Shown one piece after another: positions 47,411 through 53,891 of a stretch of DNA of 64,000 nt. This DNA comes from Archangium lipolyticum. GTDB lineage: Bacteria; Myxococcota; Myxococcia; Myxococcales; Myxococcaceae. Position 1 is the stretch's first letter. Each line of letters starts with the position of its first letter. The notes beneath the pieces are model-generated. The model worked only from the letters and a program-made list of their open reading frames with translations. It was not told the origin of the DNA and searched no databases. The position numbers and the translations under genes are program-made. Location of the stretch: assembly GCF_024623785.1 (NCBI RefSeq), contig NZ_JANKBZ010000003.1, positions 62,001 through 126,000 on the forward strand, written 5' to 3'.

Positions 47411-48310
47411 ATGAAGCCCTTCCTCACCGTCATCGCCGGACCCACCGCGTCGGGAAAGACAGCGATCGCCATCGAGCTCGCCCGCCGGCATGGAGGCGAG
47501 ATCGTCAGCGCGGACTCGCAGCAGGTGTACCGGCACTTCGACATCGGTACGGCGAAGCCCTCGGCGGAGGAGCTGGCCACCGTGCCGCACCACCTCATCT
47601 CCGTGGTGGAGCCGCTCGAGGCCTTCTCCGCCGCCGAGTACCAGCGTCGCGCCGACGAGGCCATCGCGGACATCACGTCCCGGGGCAGGCCCGTCTTCGT
47701 GGTGGGCGGGACGGGGATGTACCTGCGCATCCTGCTGCACGGGCTGGTGGAGGCCCCGGGAGCGGATCCCGAGCTGCGCGCCGAGCTGGAGGCGCTCGCG
47801 GCGGCCGAGGGCCGGGAGGCCGTGCACCGCAAGCTGGCCGAGGTGGATCCGGAGACCGCCGCGAAGCTGCCGCCCCAGGATCTGGTGCGCACCATCCGGG
47901 CGCTGGAGATCCACAAGCAGACGGGGAAGCCGGCCTCCGAGTTCCGCCGGGAGCACGCCTTCACCGAGGATCGGTATCCCTTCCGGATGTACGTGCTCTC
48001 GCCGCCGCGCGAGGAGCTGTACCGGGTGATCGACGCGCGCACGGCCGCCATGTTCCAGCGCGGGCTGGTGAACGAGGTGCGGGAGCTGATCGCCCGGGGT
48101 TGGGCCGAGGCCGCGCCGATGCGCAGCGTGGGCTACGTGCAGGCGAAGGCGGTGGTGGACGGGACGCTCTCGGTGGAGGAAGCCATCCAGCAGGCGGCCC
48201 AGGAGACGCGCCGCTACGCCAAGCGGCAGCTCACGTGGTTTCGCAAGGAGCCGGGGGCGAGCTTCGTGGAGCCCCCGTATGAGTCACTCTTGAAGGGAGG
48301 GGGAACATGA
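47411..48310 (+). CDS. miaA: tRNA dimethylallyltransferase
   Basis: A 299-residue enzyme that adds a dimethylallyl group to A37 of tRNAs reading UNN codons. The P-loop is GPTASGKT (residues 8-15), followed by the substrate motif EIVSADSQQVYRHFDIGTAKP, split in the family as SADSxQVY and GTAKP. VVGGTGMYLR and RYAKRQLTWFR are also diagnostic. Full length for the family. It overlaps the SDR gene by 4 bp (ATGA). Confidence 0.96.
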   Translation: MKPFLTVIAGPTASGKTAIAIELARRHGGEIVSADSQQVYRHFDIGTAKPSAEELATVPHHLISVVEPLEAFSAAEYQRRADEAIADITSRGRPVFVVGGTGMYLRILLHGLVEAPGADPELRAELEALAAAEGREAVHRKLAEVDPETAAKLPPQDLVRTIRALEIHKQTGKPASEFRREHAFTEDRYPFRMYVLSPPREELYRVIDARTAAMFQRGLVNEVRELIARGWAEAAPMRSVGYVQAKAVVDGTLSVEEAIQQAAQETRRYAKRQLTWFRKEPGASFVEPPYESLLKGGGT

Positions 48311-49137: not shown

Positions 49138-50895
49138 TCAGGAGGCGTAGCGTCCCGACTCGTCGGCCACGCTGCCCTCCGGCTCGGGCCGGTGCGAGGC
49201 CACGGACGTGCCGTCGGGGAGCTGGCCCATGAGCTGGCGCAGCAGCCGCTCGGGATCCACGGGCTTGGGCAGGAAGGCCTCGGCGCCCGCGTCGAGCGCG
49301 CGCTGGCGCACGTGCGGCCGGTTCAACCCGCTCATCACCACCACGCGGGTGTCGCGCGTGAGCGGGTGCTGCTTGAGGCCCTCGCACAGCCGCAGTCCGT
49401 CCACCCAGTGCAGCACCACGTCCAGGAGGATCGCCGTGGGAGGCCGGCGCGCCACCGCGCAGAACAGGGCCAGCTCGTCCGCGAAGGCCACCACACGCGC
49501 GCCCGTGGACTCGAGCAGCTGCGTCATCGCCTCGCGCTGATCCGGATCATCGTCCACGATGTAGTAGAGGTCCGGCTCCAGGGCGGGGATCGTCGCCGGC
49601 AGGGGCTCCACCGTCGTGCGCACCCAGGAGGCCATCGTCTCGCGGATGCCGGCCCACCGGGCGGTGCTCAGCAGGGCCTGCGGGGTGGGGGAGGCGAGCC
49701 CCAGGATGCCCCCGGCGCCCATGCCACCGGACGAGCCACGGTTGCGCGCCGTCAGGAAGGCCTGGGGCGCCCGCCGTCCGGCCCGGCGCAGCCAGGTGAC
49801 GGCGCGAGCCCCGGCCGCCGAGTCCTCGAGCAGCTCGCCGAGGCCCTCGCGCACATACCGGCGCTCCAGGGCCGGAGCCTCCAGGCCCGCGTCCAGCAGG
49901 GACACCGCCGCGCGGCTGCACGAGGCCAGTGTCTCGGACAGTCCCAGCTGCAGCGGGTGGCCGAAGGCGGCCGCGCCCACCGCGAGCTGACCGGGGGCGA
50001 CGATCGTGCGTCCCGGCCCGTACGGCAGCCGCGTCGTCTCCAGCGCGGCGAGCTCGAAGCCTTCCTCGACCAGCCCGTCACGGGCGGCCATCATCAACAC
50101 CTGGCACAGGTCCGCGGGCGTCACCGCCGGCCCGAAGGCGAGCGCGTACACCGAGTGCGCACCGGGCAGCAGCAGCAGCCCGTCCACGGTGGGCAGGGGA
50201 GAGAGCCACAGCCGGGCCAGCGGCGTCACGGAGAGGCGCGGAGAGGCGTGGCGCAACCGGGCCTGCACCGCCGCCACGGTGGGAGCGGGCTGGAAGCCCG
50301 GGAAGAAGGCATCGCCCAGGGACGGACCGGCCCCCGTGGCCAGCACCACCGCGTGGAAGCGATCGCCACTGCCCTGGGCGCGCACCACGAGCGGGCCGCT
50401 CTTGCGCACCGCGGCGGGAGCGTCCGGCGCCGAGGGCTGGTTCTCCACGCGCTCCACGTGCCGCTGCACGAAGCGGGCGCCCTGGGCCGTGGCCGCGCCG
50501 GCGAGCACCTCGCGCACCAGCGCCAGTCCGCCATGGCCCTGCGGCCACCCATCCACCACCCACAGGCCACCCGGGGCACACGGCAGCACCTCGCGCTGAC
50601 CGTGGGAGAGGATCTCCACGCCGCGCAGCTCGTGCGCCCGCCACTCGGGAGGCACCCGGCAGCCGAGCGCGGCCAGCCGCGAGCGGCACTCGGGCGTCAG
50701 CACGGCGGGAGGGGCGATGGTGCCCGGCTCGCTGCTCTCGTACACGCGGACGTCCAGCGTGCAACCCCGGGCCCTGCCGTTGAAGAGCAGCGAGGCGGCC
50801 AGCCCCGCTCCGGCGATCCCGCCTCCGATGATGGCCACCCTCGACCCGCTCGCCAGCCTGCTCCCGTTCATCCGCGCCCTCGCTCCGCCTTCCAT
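49138..50895 (-). CDS. FAD-dependent oxidoreductase fused to a receiver domain
   Basis: A 585-residue fusion. Residues about 18-380 are a Rossmann FAD-binding oxidoreductase like the geranylgeranyl-reductase/hydroxylase group: dinucleotide motif VAIIGGGIAGAGLAASLLF, VVLATGAGPS near 190, and LAVGAAAFGHPLQLGLS, the third FAD contact. Residues about 437-560 are a complete receiver domain: acidic YIVDDDPDQ, phospho-acceptor LLDVVLHWVDG, switch VVMSGL and LPKPVD lysine. No output domain follows. The ATG at 50895 has AGAGGA 6 nt before. It is downstream of a REC-GGDEF gene (27 bp) in one operon. The enzyme is probably controlled by phosphorylation; its substrate is unknown. Confidence 0.88.
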   Translation of the reverse strand: MEGGARARMNGSRLASGSRVAIIGGGIAGAGLAASLLFNGRARGCTLDVRVYESSEPGTIAPPAVLTPECRSRLAALGCRVPPEWRAHELRGVEILSHGQREVLPCAPGGLWVVDGWPQGHGGLALVREVLAGAATAQGARFVQRHVERVENQPSAPDAPAAVRKSGPLVVRAQGSGDRFHAVVLATGAGPSLGDAFFPGFQPAPTVAAVQARLRHASPRLSVTPLARLWLSPLPTVDGLLLLPGAHSVYALAFGPAVTPADLCQVLMMAARDGLVEEGFELAALETTRLPYGPGRTIVAPGQLAVGAAAFGHPLQLGLSETLASCSRAAVSLLDAGLEAPALERRYVREGLGELLEDSAAGARAVTWLRRAGRRAPQAFLTARNRGSSGGMGAGGILGLASPTPQALLSTARWAGIRETMASWVRTTVEPLPATIPALEPDLYYIVDDDPDQREAMTQLLESTGARVVAFADELALFCAVARRPPTAILLDVVLHWVDGLRLCEGLKQHPLTRDTRVVVMSGLNRPHVRQRALDAGAEAFLPKPVDPERLLRQLMGQLPDGTSVASHRPEPEGSVADESGRYAS

Positions 50896-50922
50896 CCGGT
50901 CCTCTGGGGGTATGGGTGTCTG

Positions 50923-51882
50923 TCAGTGCCGCTGTGCCTTCGGGGGAGGCATCTCCTGAGCCCCGTACACCACCACGCGATCGCGCCCCTCGCGCTTGGC
51001 CTCGTAGAGAGCGGCATCGGCGGCCCTCAACAGGGACTCCGTGCTCTCCCGCGGGTTGGCGGTCGAGTGGTCGGCGATCCCCACGCTGACGCTCAGGCCG
51101 AAGGGCGCCGGCCGCCCGTCGCTTCGCGTCACCTTCACGGTGCGCAGTCCGGCGCGGATCCGCTCGGCGAAGACCGCCGCCTCGGCCGCCGTCTGATGGG
51201 GCAGCAGCGCGACGAACTCGTCGCCTCCGAAGCGGGCCGCGAAGTCCACCTCGCGCAGGTTGGTGCGCAGGTGGCTGGCCAGGGCGAGGATTGCCCGGTT
51301 GCCCACGTCATGCCCCATGCCGTCGTTGATGGCCTTGAGGTGGTCCAGGTCGATGACCACCACGGACATGGGGTACTGGTAGCGGTTGGAGCGCTTGAAC
51401 TCCTCGTCGAGCCGGATGGACAGGGCGCGGAAGTTGGCCAGGCCCGTGAGCGCGTCCGTCTGGGCGAGCACCTGCAGGCGCTGTTGCTGCTCGCTCTGGC
51501 GCAGGGCCCGGTCGATGCGGGCCATCAGCTCGCGGCCGCTCGCCGGCTTGTGGACGAAGTCCACGGCGCCCATCTCCAGGCACCGCTCCAGCGTGGCCTC
51601 GTCCGAGTCTCCGGTGAGGAAGATGACGGGGACGGACTCGGTCGCCTTGTCGTGCTGCAGCGACTCGAGAATGGTCAACCCGTCCTCGTGGTCGAGGAAG
51701 CGATCCAGGAGGACCAGATCCGGCTGGCGCTCCCGGGCGAGCACCAGGCCCGACTGGCCGTCGCTCGCGCCCAGCACGTCGAACTTGGCGGCGAGCAGCT
51801 CCACCAGGCTTTCCCGTGTGCCCGCGTCATCTTCCACGACCAGGATCAGTGCCCTGTCCCCGCGGCGGTCGTGCCGTTCCAT
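50923..51882 (-). CDS. Receiver-GGDEF response regulator (diguanylate cyclase)
   Basis: A 319-residue protein. Receiver domain first (VVEDDAGTRE, phospho-acceptor LVLLDRFLDHEDG, FLTGD, VHKPAS), then a linker helix (RIDRALRQSEQQQRLQVLA) and a GGDEF domain with intact active site RFGGDEF and an inhibitory RxxD site (REVD) five residues before it. It should make cyclic di-GMP when phosphorylated and be feedback-inhibited. ATG 51882 has GGAG 8 nt upstream; the frame runs to 52017 but the extension is not preferred. It is first in the operon with the FAD-REC gene. Confidence 0.93.
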   Translation of the reverse strand: MERHDRRGDRALILVVEDDAGTRESLVELLAAKFDVLGASDGQSGLVLARERQPDLVLLDRFLDHEDGLTILESLQHDKATESVPVIFLTGDSDEATLERCLEMGAVDFVHKPASGRELMARIDRALRQSEQQQRLQVLAQTDALTGLANFRALSIRLDEEFKRSNRYQYPMSVVVIDLDHLKAINDGMGHDVGNRAILALASHLRTNLREVDFAARFGGDEFVALLPHQTAAEAAVFAERIRAGLRTVKVTRSDGRPAPFGLSVSVGIADHSTANPRESTESLLRAADAALYEAKREGRDRVVVYGAQEMPPPKAQRH

Positions 51883-52242
51883 GATCCGCTCCACTTCCTG
51901 CGCCTGCCTCTCAATGGCAGGCCGAAAGTCTCGGGTGCCACGCCCGGAGGGATCTCCCTCCCGCCCGTCCGTCGCCGCCACCCAAGGGGAGCACCCCACG
52001 TCCTCCTCCTCCTTCACCCGAGACCCCCGGCTGCCAAGTCCGATGTCTCATCACACCGACCCGCTCTGGCGAGTGGTGTGGCCGACCCGAGGAGCAAGCG
52101 TCGTGCCCCTCTTCAAGTCCGGAGAGGCGGGAGTGATTCCAGGGACTTGCAGCACCCAACGCCTTGGAGGAGGCGCACCTACTAGGCAAGAGTTGCAGCG
52201 TTCCCGGGTATCGTGCCAGTAGGAATTCCTGGGACGGGTGGA
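51883..52242. other. 360-bp region without a convincing gene
   Basis: The diguanylate cyclase frame is open back to 52017 on the minus strand, but the codons look less constrained. The right part faces the 3' end of the TPR gene. No promoter with good spacing, repeat or RNA was recognised. Confidence 0.4.
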
Positions 52243-52989
52243 TCAGCGTCGGGGGCTGAACTGAAAGCGCCTGCCACCGCCACCGCCGATCATCTGGGGC
52301 GGAGGCGGCTCGAGGCCGAACTGCCACCACATGGGCTCGTAGGGCTTCATCTTCAGTTTCTTGTCATTCTGGAGGGCCGAGAGGCTGCTCTTCAGCTTCT
52401 CGTCGGAGGGGTTGGCCTCCACGCCGCGCCCCAGCACCCTGAGGGCCTCGTCCTTCTCCTTGTTCTGTACGAGGCACCAGGCGTAGACGGCCCACATCAG
52501 GGGCTCCTTCTTGCCGGAGGTGACGGCGGCCTCGAAGGACTTCTTCATGGCGGCGAAGTCCTTGCGCTGGAAGAAGAGGGCGCCCTCCATGGCCTTGGCC
52601 ATGTAGTTGCGCGGGCTGGCCTTGGACAGGTGCGCCTTGGCGCCGTCCAGATCCTTGGACATGTACTTCAGCATGCCAATCTGGGAGTGGATCTCCGCGC
52701 CCACGAGGAACTGCCACTTGTCGTAGACGAGCCCACCTTCGAGCATCTTGATGGACCGCTCGACACGCGCCTGGGCTTCCTTCTGGCTGGTGGGCTGCCC
52801 CTGGAGTTCCTTCTGGACGGAGGTCATGAGCGCCTGGAGCTTGTTGCCGATGCGGCGGCCGAGCCAGATGTAGGTTCCGACGAAGACGAGGGTACCCGGG
52901 ATGAGGCCCTGCCAGACCTTGAAGCCCGCGAACTTGGTCACCAGGGTGACGAGCAGACCCGCACCCAGGGCGATGAGAAGGTTGTACAT
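52243..52989 (-). CDS. Membrane-anchored TPR-like protein
   Basis: A 248-residue protein. Two N-terminal hydrophobic segments (LLIALGAGLLVTLVTKF; GTLVFVGTYIWL) anchor it, and the remainder is helical with TPR-like pairs (AHLSKASPRNYMAKAMEGALFF; PLMWAVYAWCLVQNKEKDEALRVL). The tail is Pro/Gly/Arg-rich. Probably a scaffold at the inner membrane; function unknown. It converges with no gene and precedes tRNA-Leu on the opposite strand. Confidence 0.75.
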   Translation of the reverse strand: MYNLLIALGAGLLVTLVTKFAGFKVWQGLIPGTLVFVGTYIWLGRRIGNKLQALMTSVQKELQGQPTSQKEAQARVERSIKMLEGGLVYDKWQFLVGAEIHSQIGMLKYMSKDLDGAKAHLSKASPRNYMAKAMEGALFFQRKDFAAMKKSFEAAVTSGKKEPLMWAVYAWCLVQNKEKDEALRVLGRGVEANPSDEKLKSSLSALQNDKKLKMKPYEPMWWQFGLEPPPPQMIGGGGGRRFQFSPRR

Positions 52990-53240: not shown

Positions 53241-53891
53241 ATGAAGGTTCTGCTGGTGGAAGATGACGCCAGTCTCCGCGAGGGGATGGTCGAGCTCATC
53301 TCCGAGCAGGCCCCGGTGCGTGAAGCGGGCAGCGTGACCCAGGCGCTGGGCGCGTTGCGCGAGGAGACCTTTTCCCTGGTGGTCACGGATCTGCGCATCG
53401 GTGAGACGGGGGAGGGAGGGCGCATCATCCTGGAGGCGGCGCGTCAGCGGCTGCAGCCGGTGGCCATCGTCAGCGCGGCGACGGCCGAGGAGGTGGTGCG
53501 GGTGATGAGGCCCCACGAGCCGGACGCGGTGGTGCCCAAGCCGTTCCAGATCGACGACATGCTGGGGTTGGTGGAGCGCTTCCTCTCGCTCAGGAGCGAG
53601 GTGGAGCGGCTGGTGGGGCAGGCGGCGCCCGAGGGGGCGTGGAAGGAGGCGGCCGCCGGTGTCCAGGCGGTCGAGGAGCCGGGCGGGCGGTTGTGGGTGC
53701 GGATGGAGGCGGGGACGAGCCTGCCCCGGCCGCTGCACCGGGGCCGCTCGGGCATGGTGGTGCTGGAGGGCTCGCTCGAGGTGGACGGCGAGCGCCGGGA
53801 GCGGCACCAATATCTCTATCTGTCGGCCGGACCGCGCGAAGTGCGGACTCGCGAGGGGTGTCTGGCCGTCTCGCTGGCGCTCCGCGGGTAG
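53241..53891 (+). CDS. Receiver domain protein with cupin-like C-terminus
   Basis: A 216-residue protein. Residues 1-118 are a receiver domain (LLVEDDASLREG, phospho-acceptor LVVTDLRIG, VSAAT switch, PKPFQ lysine). Residues about 140-216 are a small beta-rich domain (RPLHRGRSGMVVLEGSLEV, ERRERHQYLYLSAGPREV) that resembles a cupin. No DNA-binding domain is present. It lies 22 bp upstream of the methyltransferase gene and may be co-transcribed with it. The REC part is firm; the cupin reading is by pattern. Confidence 0.83.
   Translation: MKVLLVEDDASLREGMVELISEQAPVREAGSVTQALGALREETFSLVVTDLRIGETGEGGRIILEAARQRLQPVAIVSAATAEEVVRVMRPHEPDAVVPKPFQIDDMLGLVERFLSLRSEVERLVGQAAPEGAWKEAAAGVQAVEEPGGRLWVRMEAGTSLPRPLHRGRSGMVVLEGSLEVDGERRERHQYLYLSAGPREVRTREGCLAVSLALRG

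Follow-up and report, generated by a model that had tools for sequence, protein, structure and literature searches.

What might a protein do that joins a flavoprotein-type domain to a complete receiver domain and is encoded beside a diguanylate cyclase, and is such a protein genuine? This question is raised by two genes in the 64,000-nucleotide stretch of Archangium lipolyticum DNA analyzed here (hereafter, the window). The span 49138–51882, which the first-pass annotation presented as a single feature, consists of two genes on the minus strand, and the fusion gene proper, an ORF of 585 aa at 49138–50895, stops well short of its upper end; a start at codon 9 (50871) is also plausible because the protein begins there in several genera. 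The gene upstream of it, on the same strand and after a gap of 27 bp, encodes a REC-GGDEF diguanylate cyclase of 319 aa (50923–51882). In Pfam searches the fusion protein gave a weak N-terminal match to DAO (31.6 bits, cut-off 27.9) and a match to Response_reg (PF00072) at residues 446–554 (76.3 bits, cut-off 30.2); a TrxB-type domain was not found, as the Pyr_redox_2 score was 12.2 bits against a cut-off of 26.1.

We searched other genomes for the same fusion, as the first-pass annotation had proposed, and found it in 70 genomes of the family to which the window belongs (f1) and in 8–9 genomes from elsewhere in the order, spread over four families (f2, f3, f6 and f9; both counts were read from tables). 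The nearest named relatives were from Archangium, Myxococcus, Corallococcus, Hyalangium, Pyxidicoccus and other Myxococcaceae, and the remaining weak matches mostly covered the N-terminal dinucleotide loop only. The fusion was a single ORF in every relative with a complete ORF and is therefore neither a chance joining nor an assembly error; a frameshift or sequencing error, which the first-pass annotation would have suspected had all relatives lacked the fusion, was ruled out by the presence of one ORF in relatives of five families. In the tree, the REC fusions were monophyletic and broadly tracked the host families, so that a recent horizontal gain is unsupported, although its deep forks have weak support and long branches come together. 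The protein is genuine and conserved, and it has so far been under-described.

The locus itself turned out to have a known counterpart. The window cyclase carries D60, an RxxD I-site (REVD) at 210 and an intact GGDEF motif at 219, and the landmarks published for DmxB (MXAN3735) of Myxococcus xanthus are D60, R210ExD and G219GDEF (PMC4877007). At the M. xanthus locus in our comparison (L046), the cyclase showed D60, R210ESD and GGDEF at 219, and the downstream gene encoded 577 aa, equal to the published length of MXAN_3734, a protein with a C-terminal receiver (PMC8844925). Gene content and gene order agree, and the DmxB landmarks lie at identical positions; by sequence, the window pair is therefore the ortholog of dmxB-MXAN_3734, which is a two-gene operon in M. 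xanthus according to gene spacing and RNA-seq (PMC4877007, PMC8844925). Because this locus is known, the earlier statement that no family of this kind had been described was only partly right. Outside the receiver, MXAN_3734 was reported to contain no known domain (PMC4877007, PMC8844925), whereas we describe for this part a flavoprotein fold whose FAD site is eroded, with a history that spans the order. The possibility that the receiver of the fusion is a recent duplicate of that of DmxB is unlikely, as the receivers of the fusion and of DmxB share only 29% identity. Upstream of dmxB, one site matched the MrpC consensus with two mismatches (52045–52062); because such sites are rarer in the window than expected by chance, we make no claim concerning MrpC.

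To characterize the N-terminal domain, we used an AlphaFold2 model of the fusion (23 homologs, mean pLDDT 78, pTM 0.74). Over residues 16–421 (49633–50850, minus strand), this predicted model matched geranylgeranyl-reductase-like, group A monooxygenase and halogenase structures, the best being 3oz2 (VIA-align Z 27.4, 359 residues, rmsd 3.6), and a Foldseek search of the model gave an E value of 3.8e-17. When solved structures were searched directly by sequence, the matches were all short or weak, and most of them fell on the dinucleotide loop. By sequence, the nearest relatives without REC were geranylgeranyl-reductase-like proteins from Acidobacteriota, Chloroflexota, Bacteroidota and others, and a profile comparison gave strong homology of the domain to them (hhalign probability 100, E 2.8e-42). 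Ta0516 (3oz2) and the TIGR02032-like relatives in Acidobacteriota and Chloroflexota share with the fusion both the fold over residues 16–421 and profile homology. The group A flavin monooxygenases and halogenases PHBH, KMO, RebH and PltA have the same overall fold (Z 24–27), but they are about 15% identical to the fusion, from which their canonical GD motif is absent. The flavoprotein-fold assignment for the MXAN_3734-type N-terminus, as predicted by the model, is new here. Literature searches for FAD-receiver fusions gave no paper on point. Like the fusion, fused response regulator/thioredoxin-disulfide reductase proteins join a receiver to an FAD-fold oxidoreductase, but their receiver is N-terminal and their enzyme TrxB, whereas here the receiver is C-terminal and its partner geranylgeranyl-reductase-like. 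Separately, two acidobacterial loci (L062 and L064) encode two tandem geranylgeranyl-reductase-like domains in one open frame of approximately 890–900 aa.

To see whether this domain still has the flavin site of a redox enzyme, as in the earlier proposal, we compared residues between 26 members of the fusion family and 11 REC-free relatives, a small comparison set. The dinucleotide-binding loop GGGIAG (residues 24–29; 50809–50826, minus strand) is retained, with G24 and G26 present in 26/26 and G29 in 25/26. The GD motif, whose Asp contacts the flavin ribityl chain in this flavoprotein superfamily, is degenerate (G307-A308; 49972–49977, minus strand). The REC-free relatives examined, which have no receiver, keep both the GD Asp and the acid at the end of β2, whereas the fusion family has mostly lost the pair. 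Specifically, the GD position was Asp in 11/11 relatives and in one of the 26 fusions, in which position 308 was otherwise Ala or Pro (19), Ser or Thr (3) or Glu (3), and no aligned member of the Myxococcaceae kept the Asp, Ala or Pro being the usual substitute; the β2 acid was present in 11/11 relatives and in 14/26 fusions, including the window protein (E53). Among PF01494 proteins of the same genome with a readable motif, nearly all had GD. Moreover, where most relatives have a CNxCAG-type cysteine motif, the fusions have LTPECRSRLAxLG, and R73 is invariant in the fusions (26/26) and absent from the relatives (0/11). The DG motif was set aside as evidence because its Asp is mostly missing from the REC-free relatives too. 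The altered GD, β2 and cysteine-motif residues argue for a degenerate or repurposed cofactor site, but these losses do not prove that FAD binding is gone.

These results bear on three readings of the domain. That the fusion is an active FAD-dependent oxidoreductase of the geranylgeranyl-reductase/group A monooxygenase type, switched by receiver phosphorylation, is consistent with its fold match to active enzymes (Z 25–27), the retained GxGxxG loop, E53 in the window protein and purifying selection across the whole domain (dN/dS about 0.1–0.2 for the FAD part). We nevertheless consider it unlikely in view of the GD Asp replaced in all aligned Myxococcaceae, a β2 acid missing from roughly half of the members, the substituted cysteine motif and a DAO match that barely exceeds its cut-off. 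The flavoprotein fold and the complete receiver of the earlier proposal stood, whereas its redox enzyme was weakened because acids conserved in the non-REC relatives are eroded in the fusion family. Another reading, in which the domain binds a small non-FAD ligand or senses flavin or NAD(P)H and the receiver integrates this input, agrees with an intact glycine-rich loop beside altered acidic positions and with family-specific invariant residues such as R73, and appears to us improbable. The reading that we favor, at about even chances, is a phosphorylation-switched, probably degenerate flavoprotein module, that is, a pseudo-flavoenzyme switch. It is supported by the fold match of the model together with nearly invariant receiver residues, by purifying selection on both domains, by the loss of the GD Asp in 25/26 and of the β2 acid in 12/26 members where the relatives keep both, by the GD motif in nearly all PF01494 proteins of the same genome, and by the domain homology to REC-free relatives, the monophyly of the family and the identity of the operon and its orthologs. 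Against it stand the intact glycine loop, E53 in the window protein and the number of relatives compared, which is only 11; some flavoproteins, moreover, may bind FAD even if the canonical Asp is missing.

In the receiver half of this preferred switch, the catalytic residues are nearly invariant. The receiver domain (residues 443–558; 49222–49569, minus strand) of the window protein contains the acid pocket D448–D450, the phospho-acceptor D492 (49420–49422, minus strand), S522 and K544, and thus has the features of a two-component response regulator. D449, D450, D492 and K544 were invariant in the 26 diverse family members aligned, D448 was Asp in 25 and Glu in one, S522 was Ser in 25 and Thr in one, and F541 was kept in 25/26. 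The REC domain is under purifying selection (dN/dS at most about 0.17). The earlier claim of an FAD-type domain and a complete receiver with its phosphorylation residues in one polypeptide is therefore borne out. No histidine kinase was found among the conserved neighbors compared. Only the C-terminal tail drifts (pairwise dN/dS about 0.4–3, in most cases close to 1 or higher); its very end, RYAS, RFAS or RYAAS, is nevertheless conserved in most Myxococcaceae (tails L039–L063). The conserved RYAS end of the window protein (49141–49152, minus strand), behind this fast-evolving tail, resembles a short linear motif or a degradation signal.

We further examined whether the fusion is bound to its neighbor and hence, as had been suggested, to c-di-GMP. 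The Pfam domains, intact GGDEF motif, short gap and conserved arrangement confirmed a REC-GGDEF gene as the next gene upstream: in all loci examined outside f3, provided that the contig reaches it, the cyclase was the same-strand gene immediately upstream, and this adjacency was kept in at least four families (f1, f2, f6 and f9). However, three f3 genomes (G036, G043 and G048) keep the fusion and have no cyclase ortholog, the best cyclase matches in f3 scoring 107–142 bits against about 290 bits for syntenic orthologs; conversely, G013 (locus L132) has a dmxB ortholog directly beside a convergent miaA and no fusion gene, an arrangement that amounts to a natural deletion. Since each gene is kept without the other in some genomes, the partnership is old and not obligatory. 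In f4, f5 and f7, cyclase homologs have other neighbors.

The wider neighborhood is conserved in many loci, namely a TPR protein gene (52243–52989, minus strand), syntenic upstream of dmxB in the Myxococcaceae and in f2 and f6, and a convergent gene near the fusion (47411–48310, plus strand), which we take from its sequence family to be miaA-type (tRNA isopentenyltransferase). The TPR gene also adjoins the fusion in f3 (G036), where the cyclase is absent. At 53241–53891 (plus strand), a gene conserved near the dmxB locus in the Myxococcaceae encodes a receiver and, after it, a weak ChrR-cupin-like match, another unusual single-receiver protein. At four loci of f5 and f7 (L133–L136), a DmxB-like cyclase, in some cases with a histidine-kinase-like N-terminal extension, lies beside a convergent NtrC-type regulator.

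Genetic data from M. xanthus point in the same direction as these separations. DmxB is essential for development and its D60N variant is functional, but a strain with MXAN3734 deleted develops normally, unlike one with dmxB deleted (PMC4877007). The operon is what suggests a tie to c-di-GMP, whereas the deletion has no developmental phenotype, DmxB D60N is functional and the two genes have been lost independently. One could argue that the fusion gene is co-transcribed with dmxB and serves an unrelated pathway, the operon meaning shared regulation only; this accords with the deletion phenotypes and with the separations in f3 and G013, but a same-strand adjacency over at least four families is long for a neutral arrangement, and we regard such independence as somewhat unlikely. 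This is a separate axis, which overlaps the pseudo-flavoenzyme, oxidoreductase and ligand-sensor readings.

Taken together, these computations show the fusion to be an orphan response regulator that occurs across the order and was passed on vertically. Its N-terminal domain derives from a flavoprotein of the geranylgeranyl-reductase-like kind, and its receiver has lost none of the phosphorylation residues. Because the M. xanthus deletion has no known phenotype, we infer the function of the fusion from conservation. For the pseudo-flavoenzyme switch, D492 would be phosphorylated by a histidine kinase encoded elsewhere, and, in a conformational switch, this would change how the receiver contacts the N-terminal domain. 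Having lost canonical flavin-contact acids, that domain would chiefly serve for switched binding or as a scaffold, a non-canonical output in place of an ordinary NAD(P)H-dependent oxidoreductase. Co-produced with DmxB and not strictly tied to it, the fusion would probably adjust the output of DmxB, namely c-di-GMP-dependent exopolysaccharide and development, under certain conditions. The stronger proposal, that a flavoenzyme fold became a binding or sensor module which phosphorylation switches and which directly tunes DmxB and developmental c-di-GMP, and so forms a new class of response-regulator partner domain, is quite doubtful.

Two observations are new here: the loss of the GD Asp in 25/26 members beside nearly invariant receiver residues, and the separations of the two genes in f3 and G013. 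The cyclase responsible for the approximately 20-fold rise in c-di-GMP that M. xanthus requires to form fruiting bodies is DmxB, and the protein that shares its operon has so far been left with no known domains and no phenotype. In the literature searched, we found no description of such a partner domain in response regulators, and should this domain lack enzymatic activity, it would be an instructive example of a pseudo-flavoenzyme in signalling.
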